From Tigriopus japonicus (taxonomy: Eukaryota > Arthropoda > Copepoda > Harpacticoida > Harpacticidae): a stretch of 64,000 nt of DNA. The translations under genes were made by a program, and so were the position numbers. The DNA lies in the NCBI GenBank assembly GCA_010645155.1, contig JAAGOF010000064.1:2056612-2120611 (forward strand), in the 5' to 3' direction. Shown in pieces: positions 11,161-46,930 of the stretch; the first letter of the stretch is position 1; each line of letters opens with the position of its first letter. Under the pieces are notes generated by a model. That model did not search any database, was not told where the DNA came from, and saw only the letters and a program-made list of their open reading frames with translations.

Positions 11161-12874
11161 ATGGAAACCATGGGGACCTTCTTGGATTCGCCGAGGTAAG
11201 TCGAAATTTATCTACTGAATAACAGCAACTTCGGGTCTGAAGCAAAGCTCAACAAGTTGACTCATGGTTGTTTTTCTGGCACATCTAGTACCATTTGATT
11301 GGAAATGAATTTCAAAAGTCATCCGATAGCTAATAATCTAAACTTTTTTAACAAGCAAATCTGTCAGATTTCAGTAGCATTTAGAAGAGGAGTCCTTGGT
11401 GGATAGAAATGACCTCAAAAAACCCACTAGCAATTTTTAGGCGTGGTAAAATTTTGGTTAAAATGCTCCAGATAGCCAAAAAAAAGAAAATATCCTTCAC
11501 TCCTCTCTGTGGTGTGAATTTTTAATAGGACAGGACATAACAGGATTCAGGGCAAAAAAATGTTGAGTAGTACTTACAAATCCTGGAAGATTCCTTTTTA
11601 GGGCCCCGCAGGGCTAGGCCCAGGGCTAGGACTAATGTTCCCGCAGGGTTGTGTGATTGTAAGTCGTAGCAATTAGGCTAAGTTTGTTAGGATATGTTAG
11701 GTTTAAAGCCAAACCTAATCTTACCTCGCTCTTTTTCATGCACTTGCCAGTCACCGTACAAAGCCTTGAATCCTTTAGTAAAAAATGTTACCAAAGAGTT
11801 GCCATAGGATGTAAAAATAACCCAAACGATTGTCCATCATTGCAGTTCCGTACTCGTAAACATCTTTGAGGAAAGTGATGATCAAATTTTATTTGACGAC
11901 ATCCAGGAACAAACGAACCTTCCAGGAATCCCCAATTTATCTCCAAATTCTGATCGTCAGAACATCAGTAACATTGTCATTCAAGTAAGTCAAAGCTTGG
12001 TCAAGGAAATATAAAGCTGGATCCTCTGGCCAGTAAGATCGGTGCATAAATTTTGTCTTTGAAAAACAAGCCATTGATGTTGGATTCCATTTCAGTGGGG
12101 ACCCGAGGATTTTATTTTGGCCAACGTTCCGGAATGTCGGAAATCGGGGGTTCAAAAGAAAAAGTATAGTGAGATGTATGAAGTTCTCCGGGGTGAGCCC
12201 ATTCATTTGCGCTTGCCCAAGGGAATGTTCCAAGATCAAGATTATCTTGAATTGAGACTGCAACATCAGGATTCGAGGCACAAGGAAAAGCCAATCTTTG
12301 CTTGTCACAAGCATAACTTATATGACGGGCAAGATCTCAGGAAAACTACATACCCGTTGAGAGTGTTGGCACATCCCGAACAACATATTGCCTTCTATAA
12401 TGATGAGCAAAATACTTTGAACATCAAAGGATTGGCCAATAAGGAACATCTTACTCTCCAGTTTGCATGTTGTGGGCGTGAATCTCATAGTAAGTAGAAA
12501 TGCAAACAAGCTTCTGAATAAGAAAAAACAAACGATAACAATTTCTTAACATTTTAGATTTGGGAGACTCGTCTGAAGCCCGAGCTTGGATTCTTCAAAT
12601 CAATGGGTCTTGCGGAGCCATTCCATTTGAGCACCATTTAAAGCTTCAAGTTTACTCTACCTTGCGACAACGAGGCGAAAAAAGACTGAAGAGAAAATTG
12701 GAACAAGGCCCAATCAAAAAAGAATGTTTAGGTGGTAGCGATGAAGAGGCTGAAGCTGTTAAGAGAGAACTTCAGGCTATAATAGAGAGACAAATGTTTT
12801 GGGAGTTTGACAATCTTCCCTTGGAATTCCTTAAATATAAGCTTCAGTTAGCTAAAGGGAATATCAACTTTTGA
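11161..12874 (+). CDS. Divergent p53-like transcription factor, paralogue A
   Basis: Four exons, joined by GT-AG signals and frame: 11161-11195, 11846-11984, 12096-12489, 12558-12874. They total 885 nt and 294 residues. The N-terminus is acidic (FEESDDQILFDDI), like an activation domain. Residues about 59-235 align by eye with a p53 DNA-binding domain. C128-x2-H131 in the context PIFACHKH matches the zinc-binding CxxH of p53. RVLAHPEQHIAFYNDEQNTL corresponds to its central strands. LTLQFACCGRESH corresponds to the MCNSSC strand, and LKLQVYSTLRQR to VRVCACPGRDR. A Lys/Arg stretch (EKRLKRK) and an acidic C-terminal helix follow. The arginine in the VRV contact strand is glutamine here, and the second zinc pair appears to be C183-x5-H189. 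A divergent immunoglobulin-fold factor of another type is the main alternative. Paralogue B at 45495 has identical exon lengths. Confidence 0.6.
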
Positions 12875-14231
12875 ACACCATTATGGCGTCAACATCCACT
12901 TTGATCAACGGAAAGGCCGAAAGAAATTCCAGAACCAATGGCCAACAATCAACATGGCGATGGATGTGACTTCACCTAATTTGTAAAGCTTAATTTCCTT
13001 TCACCTCTGAGACGCAAATATTGAGGGTCTTTCGTTGTTTTCAAGCCATGCCACCGTCTCCCTTTTTCTTCAGACTAGTCTGAAACCTATGTAAATATAT
13101 GTGATTTTATTGGTAGAAGCGATGATTCAATTACGGTATTACGACTTGACCATCAAAACACTTAAAGAAATTCACATTACCTCAAAAACCTCCAACAAGC
13201 TTAAACAAAAAAAATGAAATATTATTTTAAACATTACAAGTGTTAACATATGATTCTCTAATCTACTCCCTCTCAAAACTTGTAAACTTCGTTTCTAAAA
13301 AAAACTTTTTCTTGAATAAACATGTTGGAAACCATGGAATCTCATTATTAAGGTCCGAATTTGAACTTGATTTTTTGGCCAGAAAAATAGGATTTTACAA
13401 TGGGGCAGGGGTGGACACGAACTCCGATTTTTGAAAAAATTGTATGAGGCCGAGGCTATATTTTGACTCTTGGCTTTTTTTACCTACACTTTAATAAGGG
13501 GTTGCGTGAAAAAATCTTTGATGTTCTGTCCATCTGAAAAATCATTTAATTACTTGACATTTTAGTTGGCACAAAAATCATCAGCTTATTATCAGTTTAT
13601 TAGGTAGAAAATAAAGATAATATATGTGCTTTTGTATAAAAAATATCTTTTCCCTTTCATCTTGGCAAAAACTTAAAGATCCTTTTGTCCCTCTGAGCTA
13701 ATTCCACTAACCATGCACAACTAGAATCTCTTGTCTGGATGTGTCCTCCCACTTTTTTAGGAATATGGAAGATGTTTTTTCTCATGTTGTGAAAATAAAA
13801 TGGGAGTATTCTCAGTATTTCTGTAATTGTCACCACCATGACCTCCTTCAAGACATGATTTACACCCCTTTTGCTTCTTGATTTGTTTTTTTGAAATGTT
13901 TGGTTTCTGAAGTGCTAGAAGAGCCTTGTTCAAGCCAATGAGGTTGTACACACTACCCACAAATTAACTTTCTACTCATTTATCATCATTTTGCCCTATT
14001 GAACTGGCTCAAAAAATTTTGAATAGATCCAGACAGTGATGGCATTTGATTAAAAGCCATTTTCTGCCACCTGGCAGAAATTGGTGGCAGAAAATGGCTT
14101 TTATTCTTGCGAAAAAAGTGGCAGAAAATGGCAGAAATTAGTTTTTCAAGAAACTCATATAAATCAATATATTCAATACTTAAAGGGATAAAATTTGGCA
14201 CTTTTGACGTCCAACTATGGCCTTATCATCC

Positions 14232-15155
14232 CTCCGAAAGCTCATTGCATTGAAGAAGGAAGATACAAGTTCGTGAAATTGATCTCTTGGATTCGTTTTT
14301 GAATTTCCCTTGAAGTCAGGGTGGCCAAATTGAGCACTCTGATTTCGTCTTAAATATACACTGAGAGTAAGAACTTGAATGCGATTTAATAATGTAATGC
14401 TCGTTCACCATTTGAACACAATATTTTAGAATTGTAAGTTTTTAAAATGTTTATATATTGTAGATGCAAAATGTTTTCAAAATTTAAATACTCCAAGGCC
14501 TAAGGTACATTTTTCAAATCCAATTCCGTTCCATTTCCTATAAACCGAATTAGTTTGAACTTAAAAACCAAATTACCAAAATTTGAAACCCAGTCCCAAA
14601 CTAGACTCTAGTTTGGGACTGGATTTCAAATTTTGGTAATTTGGTTTTTAAGTTCAAACTAATTCGGTTTATAGCAAGCAAGCATCTGCAAACCAGACTT
14701 TGTTTGAACGGAATGTTAAGTCGTAATTTATACATCAAACATATTGCTATTGTAAAAGATACAAAAGTAAGTGTTTAATTTTATTTTAAATTTGAGTAAA
14801 GGAAATTGACTTAAAAATAACAAGGAAATTAATTCAAATGATCCTTGTAAGACTGTGTTGTAATTGGATTTGAAAAACGTACCTTAGGCCTTGGAGTATT
14901 TAAATTTTGAAAACATTTTGCATCTACAATATATAAACATTTTAAAAACTTACAATTCTAAAATATTGTGTTAAAATGGTGAACGAGCATTACATTATTA
15001 AATCGCATTCAAGTTCTTACTCTCAGTGTATATTTAAGACGAAATCAGAGTGCTCAATTTGGCCACCTTGACTTCAAGGGAATTTCAAAAACCAATCCAA
15101 GAGATCAATTTCACGAACTTGTATCTTCCTTCTTCAATGCAATGAGCTTTCGGAG
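14232..15155. repeat. Nested palindrome inside the hAT-like element
   Basis: The outer arms (about 14232-14525 and 14862-15155, each near 294 bp) are near-perfect reverse complements, starting CTCCGAAAGCT and ending AGCTTTCGGAG. In the loop lies a second, tighter palindrome at 14538-14674, with arms of about 66 bp meeting at AGTCCCAAACTAGACTCTAG. Transcripts would form a very long hairpin. No ORF. Confidence 0.9.
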
Positions 15156-15967
15156 ACATTACCGAGTCAATTCACAGCAGCACTGGGCTTGAACGCGCAT
15201 CGAGGTTTATGGAGAACGAGAAGGTTATCTTCCGGCACCCACGGTTTTGGCCAGTCTTGGCCTTCAAAGGCTATTAAGGTCAAACATTATGCTTTCAAAG
15301 GTAAGATGAGATCATGAGCGTCAATTTGGTAATAAATAGTGCATAGTTAAAGTTGCCTCAAACAAGTCGAACCCAAGAACCACAGTACAATGGAACCGAC
15401 GTCTTGGGACCAAAATGGCACATGCGCGTACTCTTTTATTATAGCGCTCTATCCCAAACAAGTCATTTTCGTTTTCCTTTTTGAAAAATCGATATTGGGG
15501 CTTTACAAAACGTAACAAATGCTTCCTGGGACACAAATCATTAATCAATTCGTTTAATTAATTACCCTATTAAGTAATAAACCATATGTTAACAGCAAGC
15601 ATTCTAGAAAATAGGGATGATCTTACTCTTATATCCCATTTCAACACTATCTAATATTTAAGTGACTTTAAACTGAAAAATAAATATTTTTTCCAATGTG
15701 ATAAATATATTATCAATATGAAATATGATAAAAGTTTATCATAGGATTTTTTTACTAGTTTTCATAAACTTTCGTCATATTTTCAATTGAAGTTCTTATC
15801 TCAGCCTGAATTATTATCACTATATGGCACATGAAAGGATGACGGATTTTAAACCAGGGAATATCTTATGTAAAGACGTGTTTTCAAATGCAATGAGTAT
15901 TTCTAGGTATTTTTTGATCAGCAATAATATTTACATTTAATTTTGAGTTATTACTTGTTACTCTCAG

Positions 15968-18975: not shown

Positions 18976-19932
18976 CAGGAACCTCTCACCACAGGACGCA
19001 AACTTCAGCTGACGCGTAGCCCAATGAGGCCCTTAAAACGGTGCGGCTCTGCAGTGAATTTGAACGAAATTGTCAAAAAACGATAGAAATAGGTGTTTGA
19101 TAGCAAACATTGCTTCAGAACATTGTTGCAGCATTAGATAGCGCTCCTTTTCCTACCATTCATTTTTATAATGCTGCTTTCTGTTCTCGGGAATTAGTCA
19201 AAACTGAGCTCCTTCAGACCAATATCTCGCACAAAATGGAGAATGGATCTCGAATAAATGCATATGTAACTTAAATATAATAATACCAACTTCAGACAAC
19301 AAGTTCAGTTATACTTCAATCAAGTTTCATGAAGATTGGGCGTCTTTTTAGAAAACTGTGGCCATGTTATTAACAATGAAACTCACAGCCACAGTATCCA
19401 CACTCTTCCCCATAAAAACATCATTTTTAGTCAGCATTTTATCTTCTGAAATCCTTGAAATCCATTAGATGCCAAATATCAACATTTTGATCAGCCAAAC
19501 CGAGAGGAAGCACGAGATTAAACAATTTTTTTGTCAACTAATAGTTGAGTTTTGATGATTCCCTCACACTGATTATTCATGCAGAATGCAGTGAAGAACA
19601 GATCACTCTCATGGAGCACTGTATTCCTCGCTTTGATGGTGTTGTTTGGTACTTATAATCTGAAACCATTGGTATTTCAGGATAAGTTGAATAGGGTTGA
19701 TAATGAGTGGTGAGCGTGATTTACCCAAGAGTGGTTTGCATTTAATTATCTCTAAGAGACAGAAACACACACTAGAATCATGTCTAGACAATTTGTTCAC
19801 TGGTTTAGTACAAAATATTGAATATTGAGTCCATAACACTTCCCTATCGTTCACTCCAGAGGGCCTCATTGGGCTCTCAAAAACAACAACAAACAGCTGT
19901 CTTCGCATCCTCTTCTGTAAGTATATCCATGC
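18976..19932 (-). repeat. Interspersed repeat 'R', copy 2
   Basis: Homologous end to end with copies at 6364-7329 and 40282-41223. The minus-strand frame is open from RMRRQLFVVVFESPMRP through to KYQWFQIIST. It is nested inside the long-TIR element. Confidence 0.8.
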
Positions 19933-21620: not shown

Positions 21621-21652
21621 AAGCAAACACAAATTTTCGTTTCATTTGTAAC

Positions 21653-21921: not shown

Positions 21922-21929
21922 TTTGTAAC

Positions 21930-23039: not shown

Positions 23040-26000
23040 ATGGCTCCTAAAAATCCCTCTCGAGGCTCTCGCGGGCGGGGTCGAGGCGGGCGTGGCCCGA
23101 TGATGGCCGCGCCCCCGCCCCTGAGCACGCCCCTAGCACGTGAGCGTTTCGTGTCAGAATCGGGCGAAGACGCGTGTCCGATTTGCTTGAATCCCATGAG
23201 CATTTTCGCGACGGGTCGTTGCAATCACCCGGTGTGCTCGGAATGTTCCACCAGAATCAGAGTCTTGTGCGAGAAGTTCGAGTGCCCCATATGTCGACAA
23301 GACATGCCCAAGGTACGCCCACATAGCCCACACACCCATGGGACGCCATGATGAGAGGAAAGGTCATCAATGACCTGGCTTTGAACTAGTGAATGGCGCA
23401 AGATTGTTTTGCGTTTTAGGAGTCCTTTGGGAGATAATAGAGACCAGAGTTTCATTTCTTTAAAAAAGAATCGTTTCTACCCCTTGTGCATTTTTTTTCG
23501 TGTCCCGATAGAGGTAGTGAACCCTGTACGTAACACAATTTTATGGAATTAAGTCTACGTTTGATGAGATGTGGCTATTCTTTGTTGAGGAGAAATCCAA
23601 AATTAGAACCTTCTAAGATAGTGCTCTGTAAGAGATGTTTCGATAATATATTTGAAATGGTTGTCTGAAGGATATGAGTTTTTAACTAAAAAAACTTTCA
23701 TCCTTTAAGCACACTTCGGTAAGACGTTTGTTGGTGTATGAGTATGAATTGTGCTAAATCCGTAGAAATATATTAAGTTCATTTCCTTTTGCAGTATTAG
23801 ATAACCTCAATTTATTTAAGAAAAAGTCGCTCAAGCTATTATTTTTTATGTTTCAGGTAATTCACAGCCACAAACGCGAGTGTTATGAGGACCTCCACGA
23901 TAACCCCTCGTTCAAACTGTTACGGAAGGCTCGGATTTGTTTCGAGGATGAAGACATTGAGCGCTCATTTCATGAGTTATTAACGCACCAATGCCCGTTG
24001 TGCGGCCCAGAATTGTTGTCCTTTCGGTCATTTTCCCAACTAGAGCAACATGTACGACGAGAGCATCAATTGTTCTATTGTGATCTGTGTGTTCAACACC
24101 TTAATGTGAGTATCAAATCTGGATGATACAAATTATTTAGTTCATAGCATTTCTTCGACATATTCATTCCATGTTTCCAGATGTTTTCGCACGAACGTAA
24201 GTTTTATAATCGGAGCGATTTGGCCACCCATCGTCGTAAGGGCGATCCGGATGATAAATCCCATAAGGGACATCCGGAGTGTGTGTATTGTAGTACGAGA
24301 TTCCTAGATAAGGATTCCTTGTTCATGCATGTTCGACGTGATCATTTCTTTTGTCATTTCTGTGATTCTGATGGGCGACAGTGCTATTTTGGGTGAGTTG
24401 AGTAATAGTAAGTAAAACCTAGTGATTCCAATCTGAATTCCCGTGTCTCCGACTCTTCTCAGAGATTATGCGGATTTGAGGATGCATTTCCGCGACGAGC
24501 ATTTCCTCTGTGAAGAATGTGATGGGGCCAACGAAAGGTTCACTAACGCCTTTCGCACAGAACTGGATCTGAAAGGTTGGCTGAAATTTGCAGACTATGA
24601 TGAACTGAATGAATCGAATAGTATCTCTAAACATCCGTTACAGGTCATATCGTGGAAAAACATCGGTCGGGATTGTCCAAAAATGAAGTCAAACAAAACC
24701 GTACCGTTGATTTGGAGTTCAATTATGGCAGTCATCGGGACCAACACAGACAAGATGGCCGTGGTCACAGGGGAAGAGACGAGGGTGGTGGTGGTGGAGG
24801 AGGCGGCCAAGGGCGACGTGGTGGCGGTGGCGAGAGTCGATATCAAGAACCTTCACTACCTGAATACGTAGATCAGATTGATGGTGGCGTCCGAGAGTCC
24901 ACCCCTCAAAGTCTCCCAGATTTCTCTGGTGAAAATTTTCCCACTCTTGGAGGAGCTTCGGCTGGAGCTCAAAGTGGGACTCGAGGTGCCGAGGCCAATG
25001 CTGCTTCTCGATTTGCCAAATCTAGTGGTAGAAATGTCGATTGGCGAAGGAATCAAGATCCATCGAAAGAGGATTTTCCGTCGTTGCCTGGAGCGTCAGC
25101 CAATGCATCTTCAAAACCCATGGGTGCTTATCGAAAAGTGCCTCAGGTTGCAGGAAGTGGGAAACGAGCCGAGGATTTTCCGGCCTTAGGTGGCCCTACG
25201 AAGAGTCTGTCTCAATTCAATCAGCCCCCGGTTTATCGGAATACTATTCAGCAACCTGCTTGGTCGGCGGGTTCGGGACCGAATAAGGAGAATCAAACCA
25301 ACGGCACGGGAAAGAAACCCGCTCCTCCACCAGATTTGAGCGATTCATTCCCTGGTCTTGGAGCCCCACTAGTTCGTCCTTCGACCGAGTCATTTAATGG
25401 AACAAAAAGTAAGAAAGGAAAGAACAATACGAACAAGAAGAACTCGAAAGTGGTGGAAGAAAAAACGATATCGTCCTCGTTAAAATCAGTGGCTGAAATG
25501 TTATCATCCTCGCCTTCTGACTCAAATCATATGAGACTGAACAGCAACTCCAACGGAGACTGGAGCGAGGTTCCAGTTAGTAAAGCAAAAAAGTCCGAGC
25601 TCAAATCCAGCCTTAATAGCAGCAATAACAAACTCAATCAGTCGGGCCCATCTTCCACCATTCCTGGGTTAAGTTACGACCAAGATGTCAGGGTGAAATC
25701 CGAACCCGCGAAAATGGCAATCCCAAAAGTTCCAAATTCTCCTGTGAAAGAAGATTTCCCAACCTTGGGTCCATCGGCATCGAAATTGGACTCTCGATTC
25801 CGACCAAACTCTGCCCCCGTTGTTAACTACTCGATGCAAAAATCGACCAACAATATTTCGCCCCAAGAAGTTTCCAAACCACGTGCCACGATCAATGACA
25901 TTCAAGATGAGAGCGCTTTCCCAGGTTTAGGGCCCGCTGCCCGCCCTATTAGTGCCAATTTCCGGTCTACTCAAAAAGTGAAACCGAGCAACAACAATAG

Positions 26001-26566
26001 TTCCTGGGGCGTGGCTACGTCGCAAGAAAAGGCTCCGCCCCCTGGTTTGACTAAAAAGATGGGAAACAGACCGCCCCCTGGTTTTGCTGGATCTCTTTCG
26101 TTCAAATATGAACAACCTCAAGGCTTCAAGGAGCGAAATAATCAACTTCTTGGAATGATATCGAAAGTGTTGGGAGCGAAATCCTTGGAATTCAAGAAGT
26201 TCAAAGACATTTCCAGTCAGTATCGCGCAGGAGGACTGGATAGCCAGAAATACTACGATCAGTGTGAGGCCTTAGTAACTCTGGAAAAGTTCCTTAAATT
26301 CTTTCCGGAATTACTAGCTCTTCTACCGGACATTAAAAAGCAGCAGGTGAGTGCATGTACTTTCTCCGTAGGGAGACATACGGCAGTAGTGTAACTTTTA
26401 TTGTTTTATATTCTAGGAACTTCTAAAAGTCCATCAAGAGGCAAATCCGCAATCACAGTTGGCTTTGACTTCATGCCAAATCTGTCGGCAAGTTGTGAGA
26501 TTGACCGATTTGGAAAATCACGAAGCGTCGCATGCATTGGATTCAGATTTCCCAGCTTTAGGATGA
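23040..26566 (+). CDS. ZNF598: ZNF598-type RING/C2H2 E3 ubiquitin ligase
   Basis: ZNF598 (yeast Hel2) senses collided ribosomes and ubiquitylates 40S proteins, starting ribosome-associated quality control in the cytosol. Six exons join in frame: 23040-23312, 23857-24105, 24181-24392, 24463-24575, 24644-26346, 26417-26566. They give 2700 nt and 899 residues, close to the human length. An RGG-rich N-terminus precedes a RING finger at 46-87 (CPIC, CNHPVC, CPICRQ). Then come Cys/His fingers typical of the family (HQCPLC with HVRREH, YCDLC, PECVYC with HVRRDHFFCHFC, HFRDEHFLCEEC). A long disordered region has seven FPxLx motifs. The end has a C2H2 finger (C870, C873, H885, H889) and DFPALG. The exon 4 donor (AAAG|GTTGGC) is weak, but it restores the family sequence LKGHIVEKHRS. 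AATAAA is at 26643. Confidence 0.95.
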
Positions 26567-28366: not shown

Positions 28367-31300
28367 CTAGGACCGTCCATATTTATCCGAATAGTCTTTC
28401 AACTCCTTGTTGAGATGCTGCTTAGATGATCTTGTTCGAATCCAAGCTTTGGCCTTGCCATTAAAATCGAAGGTATCGCTCTTGGGCAGGCGAGGAACAC
28501 CCAAATGACAATACACCACTTGATAACGAAAATTTTTGAAACCCTCCACTTCTCGGGCACAAACATAAAGTTTCGATTTGGATCGACGAATCAAGCTCCA
28601 CTTGGATTCCTTGGGGTTGAATGTGTTGGAAATCCACAAGCGGTTTGAAGCCAAAAGGGCACGCTCATTATTGGGACCTACGGAAAGAATGGCGAACTTT
28701 GAGCACAGCTCTGTGTGAATCGTACCCACTGTGCTCTCATCCTTCAAGGCGAAATCATTTGATTGTTGATACCGGTGGTGTAAATCCTGTTTCGCAGATC
28801 CCGTAGCTTTTGAGGATGACGGTATCGCGCCTGATGATGAGGCAGCATCTTCATGCGCTCTTGACTCGATAAATTCGCGACAAGATTGAACAACTTGTTT
28901 GTAAATGGCGATCTTGTCCGGTTGGATTGCGGATTTGGCCAAGGCTTGCGGGGTGGGCACGATTTGTCCGGGCTTCCACACACTTGTGGCCAAATATGGG
29001 ACACAACTTTTCGGGTCAATGACACACGCATTGAAGTGGATCTCATCTCCGGGAGTAAGGACGTGATTGATGGATAAACTGCGATCCGCCGCTGAGTGCT
29101 CGACAGATACCTTGAGATCGTACGTGTCGAATAAACAGTAACATTGGCGTTTCCCATCATGAAAGCCGTGAATGAGACCAAAGTTCTCATTCAGGGAAAA
29201 CTTGAAGATCCCTCGCGTTACTTCGAGATCGAAGAGGAGGCCATTGGCTTCACAAGCATCCTTGAGGTCATCTTGCAATTTGACAAACCTCTCCCATTTA
29301 TTGATGTCGCTATAGATCGGTACCATAAAAGCGGGAGAGAAATCCAATTTCTGGATCGAGTTGAACTTATCATTCGGCAGAGGACCTTTCACGGTGACAC
29401 CATTCGAATGGGCGATTAGTTTTACGGGTCCAGGAGCTTCCACTTCACAAACATGGGCATCAAGCTCCAGTGCGTCGCCATGATCCTCCAAGTAAGAATA
29501 CAAATCCTGGGAACGAGGAAAGGATAAATGGAGACCATCCAACTCGTAATAGATGTACTGCGAGGAATTGGACGTGGATTGTAAAAGAGCCACGTCCTTG
29601 TTGATAAGACTAACAAATCGGGCTTGCAGATGCAACTCGGGCAAGGGATCCCGCATTCCAACCAGAGCATTTGAATCAAGACCCATGAGCGGAATGGTGG
29701 GCTTTAGGATCTTGGTATGCAACGTCTCTTTCTGGATGGGGTTCAGAACTCTCTCCAAGTAGGCACTTGTCCGATCGCTCATCCGATCAACCTCATCCTG
29801 AGTTGGCATCCTGCTATTATCGTCCACGCCGGTCACACGGATTGCTAAACCGTGAATACTTGGAACATCACTCTTTTCCAAAGGCATAACGATGCAAGAC
29901 AACTTGTCACCGATCTTTAAGCACGTGGATACCGAGCAGAATCTGCTCAAAAAGAACACGTGTGATTTGTACTTGGACAATCTGAGAACGCCACCGGTGA
30001 TACGGCCAGGAAATTTGATGTTATCCAAGACGAGGAGAACCACTTCTCCTAATTCATCCTCCAGACAACGACTTGTTGCACTTGATTCACCTAAGAGAGG
30101 ATTGTCTGAGGCATAAAATTCGGGAAGGTTCTCTCCCACTGAAGCCACCACTGTACGATAAATATTAATCTTGTCCAAATGGATTTTATCCTTGGTGACG
30201 GGTTGAGGTTGGTTTTCCGGGCTGAAAATCCGGTTGTCGGCCGACCAAACCGAACTTGCTAGATATTGAATCTTGGCACTTGAATCAATTAATGTGCCGT
30301 GGAATAAGACTCGTTGACCTTCTTGGATCACCTGGAATAACTTTTTGCCATCGCGTGACGCAGTGGTAATTGGATCGACCCAAAAGTCGCAAACGTCAAA
30401 CAATACCAAATTGTAATGTATCTTTATCAAACCAAAGTTCTCATCTAGAATACGAAAAACCTTGCCCTCTTTGGCTTCATAGTACTCCGGAAAGTTGTCG
30501 GCATCTCTTGTTTTAGACATGGTTGTGGTTGAGTCTGGCACTTGGACCGATAGCATTTCATTGACATCATGATACTTTTGGAGCAAGAACTCGTCCGGTT
30601 GTTGAGCTGCATTGATTTGTTCTGGACTGAGTTCAAACCGCTCACTACACACGAGCGTAGCTAGGTACGGAATCATCTTTGTGTCATCCACTAAAGTTGA
30701 AATCACCTTGACACACACTCCGGGATCAATAAGGTCATACAAAGATGACTGGGGCTTTGGAATCATTTGTCCCACAGTGAAAAGACACAAACCCGGCTTA
30801 TTACTTAACGTTGACAACTCGATAATACCCGAACCTTCGCTCAGTATTTCCTTGACCAATCCTAGTGAGGGTAAAATTGGATGAGTTCGCATGTTTTGTG
30901 CCACCATTGGACCGGTAGGGGACAAAGGAAACTTGAGAGGCTCCGGCTCCAAATCAGTGATGAATTTCGGGTCCAATTGAGGAAAAGCCGTCCTTGATTT
31001 CCTTAGGAATTCGTTTAGTTTCAAATTCAGCTCGTCGCGCAAACCGGTGTTTAAATAACCGTACGAATACTCGCTACGACTTCCCAATAACCCATCACCT
31101 CCCTTAAATCTGTAATAGAATTAGATGTTTGAATCATTAGATTGGGTCAAGGGGCCATGGGTTTTCCATGATGTAGCAGGTACATACCTGGTGGGACGTG
31201 GAGCAGTCCGTGGGATCAGAAAGGGATTCAAAGACACAACCACGGCTTGAAGCTCCAGAACGGCGGCCTTCAAGAAACTTCCCTTGGTCAAGACAATACT

Positions 31301-32581
31301 TCTGGCAGTCAAATTGACTTCTTGGTTTGCTTTGACCTGAAACACGTATAAGGGGCATCCACTTCATTGCTTACAACTACTAGGGATCTACCTGTTCATA
31401 ACATTAAGGATTATTAAACTTACAATTGCATTGAGCGGTTTGTCGCGAAACATGTCCGATAACACGGCTTTTTGGCCATCGGCTAAATACACATCGCTCC
31501 GGTGGAACATGCAGAAGAACCGATCCTGTTGTGAACCGATTAAAATCTCGATCACCCCAAATGACTCGTCTTTAATCTCCCAGATTTTAGCCCGGGCATC
31601 GCGCATTTCCAGCCGATCCAAGCCATTGATGGTCAAAGGTACAATCGTGTCCGGTGTGGTACGCTCATGGAATTGGCTCAAGAAATCCGACTGGTTGGTA
31701 ATGGGCTCCATTCGCGATGGGTTCTCGGTGGAATTGGGCCACACGGTCATGGCCAAGAAGTCGAAGAACGGGCTATTCACCTCAACGGCATTAAAAAAAA
31801 CTTCCGTACCCACGGGCAAGAGACGATCAAGGCAGGCTTCGGCCCGACTCACAATGTCGATATATCGCACCGGTGTGCCATAAACATCTCCACTAACCGT
31901 ATTGGGCACGAACGTGACACTGATATGAAAGTAAACGGCAAAAAAAGGTCCGTCCCGTGAGTTGGGCTGGTAATCGAGGATCCCAGCCGTGTCTGAAATG
32001 TATTCACGAATCACTCCGAGTCCTCGAGGCACACTATGAACCTGAGGCGAAGGAAACGGCTCAGACAAGTCCGGATCACGTCCATCCAAGTCCGAGATAT
32101 CCAATCGAACACGAGCTCGAGACCCTGACCTGAACGACGGAGGTGGTTCGACCCCCGATTCGGGCCAATGTCCACCGGACAAACCCGAATCCCAAGCCGA
32201 GCCACCCGCCAACAACGGTTCGTCATCGGGTCGTGGTGAAAACGAAGGCCGAAAATGAGGCCGAGGTAACGCGGATCGGGTCTGATTCTGGAAATCGTCA
32301 CGCGAACGCACGACCTCGGACCCTCCCGGAAACCCTCGAAACGGGCCCGCGGAGCCTTCAAATCCCATGGGACGAAAGCTTCCACGAGCCAAAGGCGGAC
32401 TGGGCGATCGACGTCGATATCGATCGCGGGATCGAGATCGCGAGCGCCGTCGGCGACTCAAGCGATTCTCGCGACTCTGAGAACGGGCGGAACGGGGTGG
32501 AGGCGAGGGAGATTGGTAATCTCCGCCACCGTCCAAGCCAATCCGACCACGTCCATGGCCGGGAGCTGCCCAAGATGACAT
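28367..32581 (-). CDS. RS-rich protein with eight cold-shock-like modules
   Basis: Three minus-strand exons, 32581-31424, 31336-31188 and 31109-28367, are joined by small GT-AG introns of 87 and 78 bp. The frame is continuous and gives 1349 residues. The two long ORFs here are therefore one gene. Residues about 25-65 are Arg/Ser-rich (RRRRSRSRSRDRYRRRSPSP). I count eight degenerate modules at about 198-285, 330-425, 522-593, 650-728, 789-863, 927-1003, 1067-1148 and 1229-1305. A good module runs G-x-V/I, NFGLI, CLFD, GD-x-I-x-F and PYLATSVW. NFGLI followed by an aromatic/CLFD strand resembles the UNR/CSDE1 type of cold-shock domain, suggesting single-stranded RNA binding. Other OB-like folds are possible. 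Linkers repeat DKIxIYxxVVxS. Its 3' end faces the tau-like gene. I do not know a named orthologue. Confidence 0.85.
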
Positions 32582-32599
32582 TGGGGCGGCCTAAGAACC

Positions 32600-34027: not shown

Positions 34028-35221
34028 TTACTCGGATGGTTCGGGTGACGTCTTCTTCAACTCAGAAATTTTCCATTGGAGCACAGCTAATGGCAGGGAA
34101 GGCAATTCTGCCTTGATTCTAGCCATCTTTAATGCAAAATACTGATCCTCTAATAATGTTCTATCACATTTGCTGTCATCATTCGTGGATGAGCGTTTCC
34201 GCCTCGGTCTCTCGGATCCATTGCCCGAGGATTCTGAGTTAGGACTCAAAACAGACCCAGGGTTTTCATTGGTTACTAAATTGGAATTACTTTGGCTTTT
34301 CCGCAAACGATTGGTATTCCGCAGACCAACCACAACTTGAAGTTGTACAGGGGGAAAACTGGTCTCTTCATTCATCAGAGTACCCTCCAATTGAAGCATC
34401 CAGTTCCGAGCTATTTCCTTATTACCATTATCTGAAATGAAAAAGAAAAAAAAATCCCTATTTGGGTTAACTCTTAAAGCCAAAAGACACTCTTACTATG
34501 CGGTTCAGAACTGAAGCACAGAAACCGGATTTGTATTTCGTGGACGGCATTCATGCTGGAGAATTGAGCGGAGTAGTGACCCGAAGCATCTTTGGTATAT
34601 GTGGGTTCGATCGCGCAATCCACGATTTCAAAAGGACACTTATCTAGGTAATTTAAGGAAACAATTAACATCACTGATCGTCTATTGTATCGGGAGTTTG
34701 ATCACTTGCCCAATTTAGGATTCTTATGCTTCTCGCAAGCCGTGATAGGATTCTTCGAGTAAAGCAAATCGGAATGTCTCAAGGAAATAGTGAGAATATC
34801 ATTGGTGGCAATAGAGGGACTGTTCCTTTTGAGAAGAACGATCTGGTGGCGAACCACTTCCACTCGGTTGGTGTTCTCATTGTATTGAAGAACTTTCTTT
34901 TTGCTACCTAAATACCAAAAATTTGCAAACATATTCGTTGTTTTCGAGCATCTTCTGCAAATCATTGAGTTGGACTTACTAGGATGTTGTACAAGTTCAT
35001 ATGGAGCGGCGGAATGGGTATCATCCAGCACGTAGTTATCATCGATTTGCCACACAAACTGCAATCCATTCTCATCAAAGTGATTCCTAAAATCAAGAAA
35101 GTCCATTTGTGTGACGGATAAAGGATAACAAAGATTTGAATGGCTCTTACAATGCATCGCCACCGTTCACGCACAACCCTGCATCAGAAGTGAGCGTGTC
35201 AGTAAAGGAATGGCTGGCCAT
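34028..35221 (-). CDS. Divergent p53-like transcription factor, paralogue C
   Basis: Five exons were derived by splice signals and frame: 35221-35151, 35086-34980, 34907-34710, 34643-34497, 34431-34028. They give 927 nt and 308 residues. Intron 3 uses a GC donor (TTGG|GCAAGT), the only choice keeping frame. Residues 117-120 (CEKH in NPITACEKHKN) align with the p53 zinc CxxH. IQIRFLCFSSEPH (C168-x5-H174) aligns with the YMCNSSC strand. WMLQLEGT aligns with the TLED strand, and VQLQVVVGLRNTNRLRK with VRVCACPGRDR. The last intron falls after the same His and in the same phase as in paralogues A and B, supporting common descent. A Ser/basic linker (RPRRKRSS) and a C-terminal helix (LPLAVLQWKISEL), similar to LPLEFLKYKLQL of A, follow. 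It is much more diverged than A is from B. The ATG at 35221 is the first that fits exon 1. Confidence 0.6.
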
Positions 35222-36491: not shown

Positions 36492-38590
36492 TTCAATACC
36501 GCTACAAGGAATGGGATTCCCTGTAAAGAGAGTTAATCATTATTATAGTTTCAATAATTAATATTTATATGAAATTTGATCTACCAATGAGTTACTGTTG
36601 GCAGATCTATACAACCCTTGTATAGTGGGTTGGTCAGGAATAGTTTTTAAAAATTTGTCCAATCCTGCCTTAAATGCAGTTAGAGGATCAGCTCCTACAT
36701 ATTCCCGACGAAGGCAAATAAGCAGCAAATTGAACAATGAAGGAGCCCGATAAAGAAGAGAGGAGCACTTCATTGTTCGAACTAGCCTTGATTCCTTAGG
36801 ATTTGGAGGTGCTCTCAGAGCGCACGTAAAACCTCTACGATCGCTACAACTGATCTCAAATCCTGTGTTAGGACAGAGCCCATGAATGCTCTTGAAAACA
36901 TACAGTATCAGATCCCTTTCATACCTTCTCTGAGTACTGTACAACCCTAACTTCTGGAGTCTCTCCCAATACGAGAGCTCTCTCATTCCTGTGATGTTCC
37001 TAGTAAAACATCTTTGGACCTGCTCGACCTTTTGCAAACCTGCTGAACTCATTGGAGCCCAAATGGGTGAGGCACATTCAAGATGCGGCTGAACAATCGA
37101 CTTGTACAGAGTTAGCATTGTAATACTATCTCTGGACTTGAAAGTGCGATAGATCCAGCCGCACGTTTGAAATGCCTTCCCCACTTTCAACTGGATATGC
37201 TCATCAAACTTTCCATCATCTTGGACGACGACTCCCAAATCTCTCATGGACGATACCTGCTCAATATCACAACCTCCATTTTCTTTGAGTGGAACATCTA
37301 ATTTTGACGCCCCATACGTCATTGTGCGGAATTTCATCCCGTTCAATGCCATGTTACTCTCGCCAATCCAAGAGTAGACTTTCTCCAAGTCCTCAACTAA
37401 ACATTTCGAGTCCTGCCCATTCCTTCCACAAACTAATTTTGTGTCATCAGCATATGAAGAAATACTGGCTTTTGTTCTAAACTTCTGGAGAGGAGCAATA
37501 AAGAGAATAAACAAGAGCAGACCTAATATTGAACCTTGCGGAACACCTGACTTGACATCATACATGCCGCTAAAAGATCCTTCGACTTTAACTACTTGCT
37601 TCCTTTCGCTTATAAAACTACCAATCCAAGTCAGGACCTTACCCTGGACCCCTAACTCTTTGAGTTGATCGAGCAAAAGACCATGATCTACCTTATCGAA
37701 GGCCTTGGTAAAGTCAAGATAGACTACATCAACTGACTCATGGCTTTCGAGCCCTTCAATGATTTGCTTAATATGATCAACCAATTGGGTTACTGTACTA
37801 AAATGAGCTCGAAACCCATGCTGTCCAGAAGGAATTAAATCATGGACTTCCAAATAATCTACAAGCTTGGACTTCATAATCTTCTCAAAAACCTTTGCAA
37901 CGCTGGAGGTCAGAGAAATGGGCCTATAATTACTAGAGAGTGACTTATCTCCGCCCTTAAAAATTGGAACGACATGAGCTACTTTTAGAGAGGAGGGAAA
38001 CTTGCCCTGATCTAAAATGCAACGCATCAAAAAGGAGAAAACAGGGGCAAGAATCTGTGAACATTTCATCAGAAACTGAGATGTCACACCATCAGGTCCA
38101 GGAGAACTCGAGAGCTTTAAGCTCTTGATGGCCTCAAAAGCATCTTGATCTGTGACTACCAGATCCTCCAGTCGATTATCCTGACTATCAATGCCAGTCT
38201 CATCAAAAACATTGCTACAGTCATGGCCTGCTCTGACTACCCTTTTTGGAATTGAAAATACACTTGAGAACTGATCTCCAAGCATATTGGCCATAACCTC
38301 ACTATCATTGACGGTTTTACCGTCGACCTCAAAAGGTCCTACAGGATGCTTCATTTTTCTCTTTGTATTCGCAAACGAGAAAAACGCCTTTGGATTAGTC
38401 TTAACCTCCTGGATCACTCTACTTTCCTTCTCTAACTGATCGGAATCAATGGAGGCCCTAATTTTTTATTGGACCACATCCAATTTGCTTTGGAGGCTGG
38501 CTACAACAAATGGATTTGAAGTACGTCGAAGTCTATTCGAAAACTGACAACTCCGTTTGAACAACTTCTTCCTAACCTTTGGAAAAATAT
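36492..38590 (-). mobile_element. Non-LTR retrotransposon (CR1/Jockey-like LINE), 5'-truncated
   Basis: The element extends beyond its main ORF. Similarity to LINE ORF2 continues upstream of 38417 (KVRKKLFKRSCQFSNRLRR) across one in-frame stop near 38465 to about 38590. The 3' UTR ends near 36492 at a junction shared with the fragment at 35897-36042. The endonuclease domain is missing. Confidence 0.88.
36558..38417 (-). CDS. LINE reverse transcriptase (ORF2, N-terminally truncated)
   Basis: A 619-codon open frame encodes a reverse transcriptase in the order expected for CR1/Jockey-group LINEs: AHVVPIFKGGD, NYRPISLTSSVAKVFEKI, SGQHGFRAHFST, DVVYLDFTKAFDKVDH, SGVPQGSILG, and the catalytic SYADDTKL. 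Then come the thumb and the C-terminal region ASPIWAPM, YERDLILYVFK. No stop interrupts it, so it may be young, but the 5' endonuclease is absent and it cannot be autonomous. The usual QGSILGP is QGSILGL here. It is a copy of a transposable element and not a host gene. Confidence 0.93.
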   Translation of the reverse strand: MIQEVKTNPKAFFSFANTKRKMKHPVGPFEVDGKTVNDSEVMANMLGDQFSSVFSIPKRVVRAGHDCSNVFDETGIDSQDNRLEDLVVTDQDAFEAIKSLKLSSSPGPDGVTSQFLMKCSQILAPVFSFLMRCILDQGKFPSSLKVAHVVPIFKGGDKSLSSNYRPISLTSSVAKVFEKIMKSKLVDYLEVHDLIPSGQHGFRAHFSTVTQLVDHIKQIIEGLESHESVDVVYLDFTKAFDKVDHGLLLDQLKELGVQGKVLTWIGSFISERKQVVKVEGSFSGMYDVKSGVPQGSILGLLLFILFIAPLQKFRTKASISSYADDTKLVCGRNGQDSKCLVEDLEKVYSWIGESNMALNGMKFRTMTYGASKLDVPLKENGGCDIEQVSSMRDLGVVVQDDGKFDEHIQLKVGKAFQTCGWIYRTFKSRDSITMLTLYKSIVQPHLECASPIWAPMSSAGLQKVEQVQRCFTRNITGMRELSYWERLQKLGLYSTQRRYERDLILYVFKSIHGLCPNTGFEISCSDRRGFTCALRAPPNPKESRLVRTMKCSSLLYRAPSLFNLLLICLRREYVGADPLTAFKAGLDKFLKTIPDQPTIQGLYRSANSNSLVDQISYKY

Positions 38591-40281
38591 GGATAAGATG
38601 GTTTATCAAAAAATGTAATTAATAGATATCTAGGTATACAACTATTTCCCTGGACCTAAACTTATGTAATACAATAAAAGAAAAGTTGAAGTTGTTCCCC
38701 AATGGGTCTAAAAAAACGCCATGATGTCTTTGGATATTTCGATCCAAACCTAAAAAGACGTTCGGGACACCGTGGGGGCATATAAGTCTTTTTTCAGACC
38801 CTAAGGGTCCAAATTCGTTGGTGGCACTAAAAAATGATGGTTATTTGCTTTGGAAAATAAGAGTTTTTATCACCTCTGCGATCAAAATTGCAAATTTTAG
38901 TTATTTTTCCTCGGACCCGAAAAGCGCAAGATTTTTGTTAGCAGGGTTGCAGGCCTTTGATGACCGTTAACGTTTCTGTCCGAAAATTGCCTGCCAAATT
39001 TTTGCTAAACAGCTTTCAAGCGTTGGATAAATAATTATTTTTTGTAAAACTTTTCTTTGACACAATTTCAAGAAGAAAAACGCAGAGCCACTACTGATCT
39101 TAATCTTTTTCCATCAATTATTTTCATAGTTTTGAAGTGCAACCAGTGGAATAGAAAAGGTGTACCTCTGAGCTTTCGTTCACGAAATTTCTGTTTCGGC
39201 TTGTCCAATGTATCTTGAATATATTCGAAGTTCGAAAAAAGGACAAACTTACGTGTCAAGATGCAATTTTGAAAGTTGTGTTAAAATGGTAACCTCCCTG
39301 TCAGCTGTTCGTTACCCTAAAAAAGGACCCTAATTTACAAATTAGTAAATAAAAGTTTCTTTTTCTTTTTAAATAAAAGTTTTTAGTAAAAAAGTAACAA
39401 AATCTAGGAGAAAGCCTCCTTTCTGACATTTCAATCATTAGTAGAACTTTATAAAGTAAAACTTACTATGTCATGTTTGTAAAATTTGACCCATTAATAT
39501 TAAGCTTTTAGAAAGTATAATGTTTTTATCCAAACAATACCATAAATATAATATCCTGTAAAAACGTGACTCAAGGACGGAAAAGTTGATAAAATGAAAG
39601 AATGTTAAATAAAAGATAGTGCCCAAACAGCTTTTTAGGTACAAATGTCAAAGAAAAGTTTTGTTTTTGTAAATATGGATGAAAAAGGCATGAAAAAGGA
39701 TTTCCTCTCGGTTTTCCCCTCAATTTTCACTTATTGACCAAAATAGTTTGATCTTGTTTTATTGGTCTTCAACTTTTTGTTCTCAATTTTAGGCCAAACA
39801 TTTTTTCTTTTTCTTTCACCTAGGAAAAATGAGTTTTTTAGGTCTGACTTACATTTCGAAAAGGGGTTTTAAGGTCTAAACAGTGCGAGAAAAGTTTTAT
39901 CATCATGACAAGACTCAAAATTTTCCAGATATCGATAATTTTGTGTCAGGCCCAAATATGAGCTTCCACAAGAATGTCAGGCATAAAGAAAACTCAAGAC
40001 TAGCTAGCACTGTTCACTATATTTGTGACGAGAGACAATCAATTTTACTGAGGGCTTGACACTCTGTGAGATGTCTTCACAATTTAGCCACCAAAGAATG
40101 GAGATATTGATTGCAATATTGTTAGTTGTTCCAAAATAATGCGTTAGAAAAAGACTGCAAAGTGTGCAACTTCCTGGCTCAAATTTGGCCACACAGGCTA
40201 ATATTTTGGATCTGGCTACGCTGTTCCCTTCTTTGTCTCCTCAACAAAAGATCCTTTGTATCCTTAGTATATCTGAATCCT
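38591..40281. other. Intergenic with repeat debris
   Basis: 38770-38940 repeats the block at 35495-35680. At 38943 a sequence starting CAGGGTTGCAGGCC looks like a hAT left terminus, but I found no matching right end. No gene is supported. Confidence 0.45.
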
Positions 40282-41223
40282 TACTGAAGAGGATGCGAAG
40301 ACAGCTGTTTGTTGTTGTTTTTGAGAGCCCAATGAGGCCCTATGGACTGAACGATAGGCAAGTGTTATGGACTCAATATTCAATATTTTATACTAAATCA
40401 GTGGATGAATTGTCTAGACATCATTCTGGTATGTGTATCTGTCTCTTAGAGGTAATTAAATGCAACCCACTCTTTGGTAAATCACGTTCACCACTCATTA
40501 TCAACCCCATTCAACTTATCCTGAAATACCAATGGTTTCAAATTATAAGTACCTAACAACATCATCAAAGTGAAGAATATAGTGCTCCATGATGGTGATC
40601 TGTTCTTTACTTCATTCTGCATGAATAATCATTCAGAGGGAATCATCAACAACTCAACTATAAGTTGAAGAATAATTTGTTCAATATTGTGCTTCCTCTC
40701 GGTTTGGCCTGTCAAAATGTTGATTTTTGGCATGTAATGGACTTCAAGCATTTCAGAAAGTAAAATATTGACCAAAAATGATGTTTTTTTGGGAAGAGTG
40801 TGGATGTTTGGGTGTAAGTTTTGTTGTTAATAACAGGGCCAGTTTTCCAAAAACACGCTCATTTTTCATGAAACTTCATCCGTTTATAATTGAACCCATT
40901 GTCTGAAGTTGGCATTATCATATTCAAGTTATACATGCGTTTTATTGAGATCCATTCTCAGTTTTGTGCAATGACATTGCTCTGAAGCAGCTCAGTTTTG
41001 ACTAATTCCTGAGAACAGAAAACATCAGTATAGAAATTGATGGCAGGAAAAGGAGCACTATCTCATGCTGCAACTTTGTTCTGAAGTGGTGTTTGCAATC
41101 CAACACCTTTTTCTATCGTCTTTTGGCAATTTCGATCAAATTCACTGCAGAGCCGCACCGTTTTAAGGACCTCATTGGGCTACGCGTCAGCTGAAGTTTG
41201 CGTCCTGTGGTGAGAGGTTCCTG
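40282..41223 (+). repeat. Interspersed repeat 'R', copy 3 (inverted)
   Basis: This is the reverse orientation relative to copies 1 and 2, so the shared open frame is on the plus strand (RMRRQLFVVVFESPMRPYGL through PLIINPIQLI to KYQWFQIIST, stop near 40554). It ends at TGTGGTGAGAGGTTCCTG. A more divergent relative of its distal third is at about 42400-42640. Confidence 0.8.
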
Positions 41224-42734: not shown

Positions 42735-43017
42735 ACTTCGCGCCTATATCTATGTACTGTGACTCCAGACCTTGGCAGTCTGCTTCTCAACTTCTCCAAT
42801 CCCACAGAACAATCCTGTGGAACAATCCCCCCTCTTAGGTTCCCAGTGCTGCCAGAAAAGACCATTACTAACGTATTTGAGTTCCCCTATGGCATTTTTT
42901 TCGATATGTCTTATTTTCTGACATATTTTGGCTTTGTTACAGTTGATTCTTGATCGTAATGATGGAAATCGACAAATAGCTAGATTTCCTTCCACAAGAT
43001 TTATATAACAATATATA

Positions 43018-43165
43018 ATCTATTAATGAAATAATATATTAATAACATAATAAATAATATATTAATAACATAATAAATAATACATTAATAACATAATAAA
43101 TAATATATTAATAACATAGTAAATAATATATTAATAAAATTATAAAAAAATAATAAATAATCTAA
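43018..43165. repeat. AT-rich minisatellite
   Basis: Five or so copies of a roughly 27-bp unit, TAATATATTAATAACATAA plus a variable AATAAA spacer, decaying toward the right. Absent from the paralogous site in unit A. Confidence 0.9.
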
Positions 43166-45494
43166 GAAAATAATAATGTCATAAAATTCTCATAAATGAA
43201 CATTTCTAGAGAGCGTTTTAAATCATACCACCAGCCCCTAAATGGGTTAATTGGCCGTACAAGTTGCTCCACCCATTTTGGCGAATCCAAGCTATTACTA
43301 TTTCGTGATCCATGTTGTTGCATCATGGAAAAATGGTGAATGACTAGATGATTTATTTAAGTGTACGTAAATGTAAATAAAAGAAGAGAGCAATGAGCAA
43401 GGACGAGTAAGAGCAAAGGGGGAATACAACACATGTCAAAAGTCTAAATCGTCTAGTTGAATGGATGTGATCTATTTTTCACTTTTAGAATCAGACTAGA
43501 CTGTGATCAAAAAAACATTTTGATCTTTTTTATTGCCATTTTTATTATTTTTTGTAAAATTTATTTGAGGGTTTAAAAAAGCACTTCATCAAGTGCTACT
43601 GCACATAATTAAACCTATTATTGAACCAGGAAAAAGTTTACAGATGTTTATTTGTTCAGGGATTCCATAGAACCATATCAATATTTCAAATGTTGCAGAA
43701 AAAAGAAATAAAACCCTTTTTAATGCATTCTTCCAAGTAATGTATGATTCTAAGTGTCTCAGTTTCCTGAGAAAAACTGAGCACATTGTCAGCCAAGTTC
43801 AAGCAAAGGTATCTAATCAAGAATATAGATTGTTTCCAAGGACGTTAATTGTTTGGCTGAACAATGAAATGGAAATAACTTGTTAGCCATAATAGAGAAT
43901 GTGAACTAAATATATCGGTGTAACAATTTCCCCCCATAAGTGGAGACAAACAAAAGGGAGGTAAAAGCTCAAAGTCAATCACATATTGGTCACATATTGA
44001 TAATCATTTTACAATTGTCATCTTAAGTATGGAAAAGTAAATCATCCTAACCAGAACATTAGCTTTAAGTAAAGTCACTTGACGTAACTGTCTTTAGTGA
44101 TTTATACGCACTTATTTCTTGACTAGGTTTAACAAACCACCCCACCCAGCACTTGCTTATCTTCTCATTTTGGCTACCCTACTGTTCCTCTGCACTTTGG
44201 CCTAGCTGACCAGCACAGAAATGAGGATAAAAGGGCTAGATTTCACTAGATTTGGAATTGTTCACAACCTCTATTCGCAAAAAAACTCAACAAATCCAAC
44301 TGGACTGTTTTGCCGCTGGCAGTATGATTTAAAACCACAGACCATATAATAGTCCTTGCTTCCTGCGAGAAAAAGGTGGACAACTTTGCTTCATCAGCTG
44401 GTACATACCACTACACCCTAAAATGGTTGGAATTTTGAACTTTTCAAAAACTTACCAGCGTGGCCAAATCCTGAACAAACTCAACGTACCGTACGTTCTT
44501 TGCTCTCGACGCAATTGAGCGTCGTTACTTCTGACGCGCGGTTGCCCTGAGATTTTGAAGCTAGCACAGCTAGGCCAAGTGGTGTCACTTTTCTCTTGCC
44601 GATGGCATGGCCCAATGCGACATCTTGCCATTATATGATCTGTGTTTAAAACGCTAACTTGAGCAAACTGTGTGCATGATCCATTTGTTTCTCTTCTTTA
44701 ATTTCATTCAAATGCATTCATGGCACAGGTCAGATCCACTTGTTTTATGGACCCTCATTGTTTTCCTATCTAAATGACATCATGATGTCATAGATATTGA
44801 CAAAAGGGGAGAGCATGAACTAAACTTAAACTTAACCAAACCTAACTTAACCTAAAATTATGAAAAAGCAACCTATCCAACAGATTCCTCACCAAAAACG
44901 CTTGAACAAAAACCCTGACGAAGGCACGAATCCCAGTTTGCAAATTGAAAAACTTGCGAGTTAACTCTGAGCAAACTCAATATGTTGTCAATCTATCAGG
45001 AATTTTAGATTTATCTAGTGCTGCAGTGTGTTCTTGATGACGTCATTTCCTAGATCGAAAGACAATTAGCTCCCATATACTTGCTTTGTTGACTTTTTAA
45101 CATTCACTCTACTGGTAATCTGGCATATTTCGAACCGACAATCTGGCATACTTTTTGGAACAGATCCGGCAGCACTGTTGTCAAGTTTGTTAATTGATAT
45201 CAAGGAAGCTACACACAGGCCATCAATTGCCCTTCTGCCATCTATGAACCAACCAAGCGTCTCAAACCCAGGGGAATAATTAATCCTTAACCTCAGCACC
45301 AAATTTAAGCTTTACGTAAGTCAAAAACTTGAAATTACAAAGCAAGCAAGCCATCAAATAAGAAAGATCCGATTGGTTTTAATATTTAAGTTTGTGTTAG
45401 AGGTTCCGTTACTTTAGAGGGGCTAGATATTGAAACTGACCATATTTCTTGATTTTTGCTTTGAAGGAAGGAAAATTGGAAAAGTTACTGTGAA

Positions 45495-46930
45495 ATGGAA
45501 ACTATGGGGACCTTCTTGGATTCGCCGAGGTAAGTTGAAATTTATGTACCAAGTAACAGCAACACCGGGTCTGAAGCAAAGCTTAACAACCTGACACATG
45601 CTTTTTTCTTTGGCGCGTCTAGGAAAATTTTATTCAAAACGAATTTTACAAGTTCTCCTACAGCTAATTTCCAATCACACTAATTACCAAGCAAAAAATC
45701 TGTCAGATTTCAGTAGCATTTAGAAGCGGAATCATGTGTAGATTGAAATGACCTCAAAAAAACTACTACGCAATTTTCATGCTTGTTGAATATTCGCTTA
45801 ATCAGCTTCAAGTAGCCAAAAGATAGAAAATATCCTTCACACCTCCCGTGAAGAGTGTTACCCAAGTTTTGGCACAGAATGTAAAAATAATCATTACGAT
45901 TGTTCCTTTCAGTTCCGCACTCGGAAACATCTTTGATGAAAGTGATGATCAAATTCTACTTTACGACATCCGGGACGAGACGAACCTTCAAGATATCCCC
46001 AATTTATCTGCAAATTCTGATCATCTGAACATCAATAACACTGTCATTGAGGCAAGTCAACTTGGTCAAGAAAACCTGAAGCTGCAGCCTGTGGCCAGGA
46101 AAAACGATGCATAAATTACGACGCTAGAAGAAGGAAAGATTGATTCTGAATTCCATTTCAGTGGGGACCCGAGGATTTCATTTTGGCCAACGTTCCGGAA
46201 TGTCGGAAATCGGGGGTTCAAAAGAAAAAGTATGATGCCATGTATGAAGTTCTCCGTGGTGAGCCCATTCATTTGCGCTTGCCCAAAGGACTGTTCCAAG
46301 ATCAAGATTATCTTGAATTGAGACTTCAACACCAGGACTCGAGATACAAGGAACGGCCCATCGTTGCTTGTCACAAGCATAATTTGTATGAAGGGCAAGA
46401 TCTCAGGAAAACCAATTATCCGTTGAAAGTGTTGGCACATCCCGAACAAGATATTGTCTTCTATAATGATAAGCTTAATACTTTGATTATCAAAGGATTG
46501 GCCAATAAGGAGCATCTTACTCTCCAGTTCGCATGTTGTGGGCGCGAATCTCATAGTGAGTAGAAATGGGATCAATAAGAAATTGAAATAATAACAATTT
46601 AAGAACATTTTAGATTTGGGAGACTCTTCTGAAGCCCGAATTTGGATTCTTCAAATCAATGGAACTTGCGGAGGCATTCCATTTGAGCACCATTTAAAGC
46701 TTCAGGTTTACTCCACCTTGCGACAACGATGCGATAAACGACTGAAACGAAAATTGGAACCACCCCCAATCAAACAAGAATGTTTCGCTGGTAGCGATGA
46801 TGAGTTTGAAGATATTGCAAGAAAACTTCAGGCTAAAATGGAGAGAGAGTTGCAGTGGCGGCTTGCCAATCTTTCCTTGGAAGTCCTTAAATATTTGCTT
46901 CTGGAACCTGAAAGAAATATCCCTTGTTGA
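45495..46930 (+). CDS. Divergent p53-like transcription factor, paralogue B
   Basis: Exons 45495-45529, 45913-46051, 46162-46555 and 46614-46930 have exactly the lengths of paralogue A (35, 139, 394 and 317 nt), 294 residues. The exon 2 donor is GC (GAG|GCAAGT) where A has GT. The sequence otherwise reads on into a premature stop, so splicing here is needed. In the exon 3 block I count about 15 differences in 126 residues from A. PIVACHKH (C128-x2-H131) and FACCGRESH (C183-x5-H189) are unchanged. The C-terminal 40 residues differ far more (QWRLANLSLEVLKYLLLEPE). All frames are intact, so both copies are probably expressed or lost function only recently. Family assignment carries the same uncertainty as for A. 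Confidence 0.6.

Follow-up and report, generated by a model that had tools for sequence, protein, structure and literature searches.

The window analysed here is a 64-kb stretch of the genome of the copepod Tigriopus japonicus (C14:2056612-2120611 of an assembly of 194.85 Mb in 158 contigs), and it carries three divergent p53-like genes, A, B and C. The gene models were reassembled from the DNA, with the exons spliced and the frames checked to be open throughout. The rebuilt models reproduced the coordinates and lengths given in a preliminary description of this DNA, and the motifs picked out there (ACHKH, ACHKH and ACEKH; CCGRESH, CCGRESH and CFSSEPH; LQVYSTLRQR and LQVVVGLRNT) were all present in the translations. 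The intron ends were GT-AG in 8 of 10 cases and GC-AG in the other two (Table 1). The three genes are intact. A pseudogene reading was dropped in view of the open frames, the intact splice sites and a ratio of nonsynonymous to synonymous change (dN/dS) of 0.23 between the DNA-binding domains of A and B. From the N- to the C-terminus, each protein comprises an acidic region, the domain, a stretch of basic residues and a pair of helices. Two T. californicus proteins, P0001 (A-type) and P0003 (C-type), are orthologues, and statements below on all five proteins refer to A, B, C and these two. By eye, the basic stretch follows the domain in all five (KRLKRKL in A, RPRRKR in C).

Table 1. Features of the three p53-like genes, in positions of the window
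Feature	Position	Strand	Basis or remark
Gene A, divergent p53-like, 294 residues	exons 11161-11195, 11846-11984, 12096-12489, 12558-12874	+	frame open once spliced; introns GT-AG
Gene B, duplicate of A, 294 residues	exons 45495-45529, 45913-46051, 46162-46555, 46614-46930	+	intron 2 GC-AG
Gene C, 308 residues	exons 35221-35151, 35086-34980, 34907-34710, 34643-34497, 34431-34028	-	intron 3 GC-AG
A: putative L2 metal motif C128-x2-H131, at p53 C176/H179	12303..12314	+	invariant in all five proteins; aligned on canonical C-P-x-H
B: L2 motif C128-x2-H131	46369..46380	+	
C: L2 motif C117-x2-H120	34726..34737	-	
A: L3 motif C183-C-G-R-E187-S-H189	12468..12488	+	C183, E187 and H189 invariant in all five proteins
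B: L3 motif C183...E187-S-H189	46534..46554	+	
C: L3 motif C168-F-S-S-E172-P-H174	34498..34518	-	followed by the phase-1 intron common to A and B
A: Q220 at p53 R273 position (S10)	12647..12649	+	Gln invariant in all five proteins; register from structural alignment end points
C: Q206 at p53 R273 position	34337..34339	-	
Duplicated block with gene A and upstream flank	10920-12884, partner 45256-46940	+	window self-BLASTN

The three genes belong together. A and B were 79% identical over 292 residues, and C matched either of them at about 25% identity (142-151 residues aligned, BLASTP E about 1e-10). The same Asn codon, directly after the invariant His of loop L3, is split in phase 1 by intron 3 in A and B and by intron 4 in C. 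No L3 intron was found on reading the sequences of the three recognised p53 genes of this genome (C9, C8 and C20, named after their contigs and introduced below). We took the common L3 intron as a shared derived character. Compared by eye, no intron position coincided exactly between the subfamily and the recognised p53 genes; intron 3 of C lies near an intron of the C20 p53 in a different phase and was not used as evidence. P0001 matched A at 45% identity over 83% (two matches among 321 candidates), and P0003 (TCAL_06945) matched C at 69% over 89% (one match among 392); these orthologues carry names such as "uncharacterized" or "hypothetical". A protein search with the five-sequence profile returned the same three T. 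californicus proteins only (E<=10, 1311 candidates), and this search needs shared five-residue words, so that relatives outside Tigriopus could be missed. Six-frame genome searches, using A and C as queries, gave no further convincing copy, the sole match on another contig being to C54 with A (E 0.53). Within the range of the protein search, relatives were seen in Tigriopus only, in agreement with the lineage-specific subfamily proposed earlier. Another T. californicus protein, P0002 (TCAL_15111), is annotated as an unrelated N-terminal stretch fused to an A-type protein. The N-terminal part looked transposase-like by eye without a Pfam match, and the fusion is probably an annotation error.

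A and B each sit in one copy of a duplicated block, whose two main pieces match as 10920-11505/45256-45845 (81% identical) and 11786-12884/45856-46940 (84%). Weaker duplicate matches flank it on both sides, at 13059-13296/47070-47329 (74%) and in three short pieces upstream. By the Nei-Gojobori method, dN/dS between A and B was 0.55 over the whole coding sequence and 0.93 in the N-terminal part; the domain value stated above reflects 22 nonsynonymous changes on 406 sites and 22 synonymous changes on 107 sites. Thus, the DNA-binding domain has been under purifying selection since the duplication, while the tails drift or diverge. The C-terminal part gave 1.31, a value that rests on 7.5 synonymous changes, and positive selection was not called there. 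A repeat of about 960 bases also occurs in three copies near A and B (6364-7329, 18976-19932 and, inverted, 40277-41223; 85-88% identical by self-BLASTN); it may be a mobile element connected with the duplication. The frame at its third copy (40140-40553) has no Pfam domain.

The fold was examined in the AlphaFold models of P0001 and P0003, which were compared by Foldseek/VIA; A, B and C entered as exon rows only. A p53-type β-sandwich DNA-binding domain was found in both models, spanning p53 residues about 104-288. The preliminary description had named a structure lacking a p53/Rel-type sandwich as the case against its p53 assignment, and both models contain the sandwich. The matches listed included no other fold of the p53-like superfamily, which leaves such folds possible. 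The core packing points the same way: in all five proteins residue 255 (p53 numbering) is Trp and residue 270 is Leu or Val (A being read from the five-sequence alignment). An aromatic residue at 255 with a small one at 270 is the inverted packing of most invertebrate p53s, according to PMC8901663, and the C8 (Phe/Ile) and C20 (Phe/Leu) p53s of this genome fit it. Beyond the domain, the models ended in two long helices that no strand precedes. The Pfam hits of all five proteins included no tetramerisation family, although a diverged one could escape Pfam, which fails to recognise the core domain as well.

The sequence relationship to p53 was assessed by comparing a profile of A, B, C and the two orthologues with one built from the C9, C8 and C20 p53s and the PDB core 3q01, an engineered variant. 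The hhalign score was 29.1 over 144 colinear columns. None of 399 column permutations reached it (mean 13.0, standard deviation 2.2, maximum 20.6), and the reversed profile scored 12.8. In pairwise comparison with the C20 p53, C scored 65, a value reached by 3 of 2000 shuffles, and the C-type orthologue scored 63 (7 of 2000). A and its orthologue scored like shuffles, 1711 of 2000 reaching the score of A and 418 of 2000 that of P0001. C thus forms the bridge between the subfamily and p53. Together, the sandwich in the orthologue models and the colinear profile match bear out the p53 fold and ancestry claimed before.

Several results nevertheless weigh against a p53 origin. PF00870 had no match at E<=10 in any of the five proteins, and a whole-genome search with it (E<=1) found three other loci and not A, B or C, namely C9 (185 bits), C8 (111 and 63) and C20 (53, 34.5 and 33). 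Searches against Pfam, with phmmer against PDB and with the subfamily profile against PDB sequences all failed to link the subfamily to p53, the profile search finding no p53 among the PDB sequences. Single-pair phmmer against the p53s of the genome gave no significant pair among the matches listed, which covered A, B, P0001 and the first part of C. The probability that hhalign itself assigned was only 10% in global and 20% in local mode, and it fell to 4.3% for the A-type rows alone (46 columns, score 24.2) and 0.8% for the C-type rows alone (135 columns, score 18.7). Against single p53s, the permutations reaching the score of the profile were mixed, at 0 of 99 for C9, 1 of 99 for C20, 5 of 99 for C8 and 17 of 99 for 3q01. 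The failures of A and its orthologue against shuffles belong here as well, as do the only moderate mean pLDDT (predicted local distance difference test) of both models, with part of L3 below 50, and the C9 p53, in which Leu at 255 and Phe at 270 show that the invertebrate packing is not universal in this genome. The empty Pfam and PDB searches and the low hhalign probability would be expected if the domain were an unrelated Ig-like β-sandwich with chance Cys/His motifs. However, the Cys/His pattern is kept in both T. californicus orthologues and so is not due to chance, and we consider such an origin very improbable.

In p53, the zinc quartet consists of C176, H179, C238 and C242. The L2 motif of the subfamily aligns with the first two, P0001 reading ACPKH. 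The register of L3 was taken from the hhalign match to the canonical profile and from the pairwise alignment of C with the C20 p53, which share sequences and are not fully independent. Both were gapless from the first L3 Cys to the next strand, and placed C183 of A at C238, E187 at C242 and H189 at G244. In this register the quartet is incomplete: the first three residues are kept, and C242 is replaced by Glu in all five proteins. W255 with Leu or Val at 270, as in invertebrate p53s, supports this gapless register. The spacings are unusual, with 51-57 residues from C176 to C238 in the subfamily against 61-65 in the p53s compared. From C238 to R273 in strand S10 it is 37-38 against 34-35, an excess of 2 to 4 residues over the four p53s compared that calls for caution about the register. 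Both alignments placed the 2-4 extra residues after L3; if they lay inside L3, the Glu, the His, R248 and 255 would all take other positions.

The preliminary description had read C-x5-H as standing in place of the C-x3-C of p53. Its first Cys does fall at C238, but the His aligns with G244 and the Glu with C242, so the His does not replace C242 by position. The fourth ligand could be the invariant Glu or the invariant His, or no metal may be bound. A Cys-His-Cys-Glu site, with E187 exactly at C242 and H189 in the second shell or in contact with DNA, is plausible, if rather short of even odds. The register and the invariance of E187 favour it, and so does the recognised C8 p53 (contig C8, about 2534981-2535678), whose CLSSDVGG has Asp (codon GAT) at C242; its CLSSD resembles the CFSSE of gene C and stands at the same place. 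On the other hand, zinc is more usually bound by His than by Glu, the register would shift with extra residues in L3, and part of L3 was modelled at low confidence. A true C2H2 site (C128, H131, C183 and H189), with the His of C-x5-H serving in place of C242, draws on the invariance of H189 across both branches. It must contend with the equally invariant Glu at C242 and with the acidic substitutes in the recognised p53s. In the C9 p53 all four ligands are kept. The C20 p53 (contig C20, about 184552-185250) reads MDLGSCPGG, in which DLGSC has Asp at C238; with the Asp of C8, this means that a change from Cys to an acidic residue recurs in the zinc site of this genome's p53s. For this reason a C2H2 site was not accepted as the default, and we regard it as doubtful. 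In the models, pLDDT was below 50 at residues 194-200 of P0001, just past Glu191 and His193, and across 164-172 of P0003, a span that contains Glu166 and His168. The putative metal site would thus be poorly defined even with coordinates.

The DNA contacts are altered as well. The structural alignment rows end on P0001 N231 at R280 (2ahi_C) and on P0003 L205 at P278 (4ibz_A). These end points place an invariant Gln at R273 and an invariant Arg in the G279 slot. The loss of the S10 contact arginine noted earlier was thus seen in all five sequences, and R280 is replaced by Asn, Gln or Asp. By the gapless register R248 is also lost, with Asp or Asn in its place, and the Gly-Gly-x-Asn-Arg-Arg of L3 is gone. 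Among the recognised paralogues, the C8 p53 has Lys at R273 with the R280 residue kept, and the C20 p53 keeps the residues at all three positions and has the strand RICTCPKRD. With the canonical contacts missing, a loss of DNA binding is possible: the proteins might keep the p53 fold, bind neither metal nor DNA, and act through protein contacts, for example as antagonists of the recognised p53s. The lack of a tetramerisation domain among the Pfam hits would fit such a role. However, the C/H/C residues with the Glu and the His are invariant across branches about 25% identical, constraint on A and B falls on the DNA-binding domain, and in all five proteins this domain is followed by a basic stretch. 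We therefore think this role unlikely.

Taken together, the results favour A, B and C as a fast-evolving p53-derived subfamily, so far known only from Tigriopus, with an altered p53-type domain, L2 and L3 pinned by metal, a new DNA preference and C-terminal helices in place of the tetramerisation domain; we put the probability of this reading at roughly two in three. L2 and L3 would still be held by Cys-His-Cys together with the Glu at C242 or the His two residues on. The domain would still bind DNA through other residues, such as the invariant Arg in the G279 slot and lysines near L1, and its sequence preference would differ from that of p53. The C-terminal helices may replace the p53 tetramerisation domain, the helical pair serving dimerisation, and the basic stretch may act as the nuclear signal of what would be nuclear transcription factors. 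The three are probably gene regulators with a different target code. The stronger statement, that both halves of the p53 DNA-binding machinery were replaced in a domain under purifying selection, the Cys3His site by Cys-His-Cys with Glu or His and the R248/R273/R280 code by another, is tentative and has a little under an even chance.

Several other features surround the genes. A reverse-transcriptase frame (RVT_1, 36558-38465, minus strand), non-long-terminal-repeat-like by eye, lies just upstream of C on the same strand. The neighbours by domain are HEXIM (4770-5834), ZNF598 (23040-26394) and a BCR/ABR-like RhoGEF/PH/C2/RhoGAP gene (54678-61671, minus strand), whose putative name follows from the domain order, the Bcr-Abl_Oligo match being below the cut-off. 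Long open frames of 917 and 400 residues at 28367-32590 (minus strand) showed recurring "ENFGLI"-like segments by eye and no Pfam match. Rfam found nothing in the window.

Several zinc-site and DNA-contact residues of human p53 are cancer hot spots. If the favoured reading is true, a natural lineage would show which compensating changes let the p53 fold work without the zinc and contact residues, and small proteins that can be expressed would make the evolution of p53 DNA specificity directly testable. Domain annotation misses the family, as the names of the T. californicus orthologues illustrate, and in two recognised p53 paralogues of this genome the zinc site is altered too, each at a different ligand. 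Among the open-access papers listed, no title concerned these genes, and the gene names gave none; p53 papers on Tigriopus may exist in subscription journals.

Among the marks of canonical p53, three were absent (the Pfam model, the zinc quartet and the contact arginines) and two present (the fold and the core packing), and the subfamily was filed as p53-derived and p53-fold, not as canonical p53. Compared with the canonical p53/p63/p73 domain (PF00870; PDB 3q01, 4mzi and 7pc6 from Alvinella), it is alike in the predicted sandwich, the L2 C-x2-H, the first L3 Cys and the aromatic 255 with small 270 found in most invertebrate p53s. It differs in lacking a PF00870 match, in Glu at C242 and Gln at R273, in the loss of R280, R248 and the L3 GG-x-NRR, and in its spacings. 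The C20 p53 was the best pairwise match to gene C among the four p53s compared and has likewise changed its zinc quartet; unlike the subfamily, it is recognised by PF00870 and keeps its contact residues. CEP-1 of C. elegans and Drosophila p53 are divergent invertebrate p53s with dimer interfaces unlike the vertebrate ones, and PMC3790848 reports perfect conservation of the zinc- and DNA-contact residues across the seven family members it compared, which range from worm and fly to human. In the Tigriopus subfamily these residues are not fully conserved.
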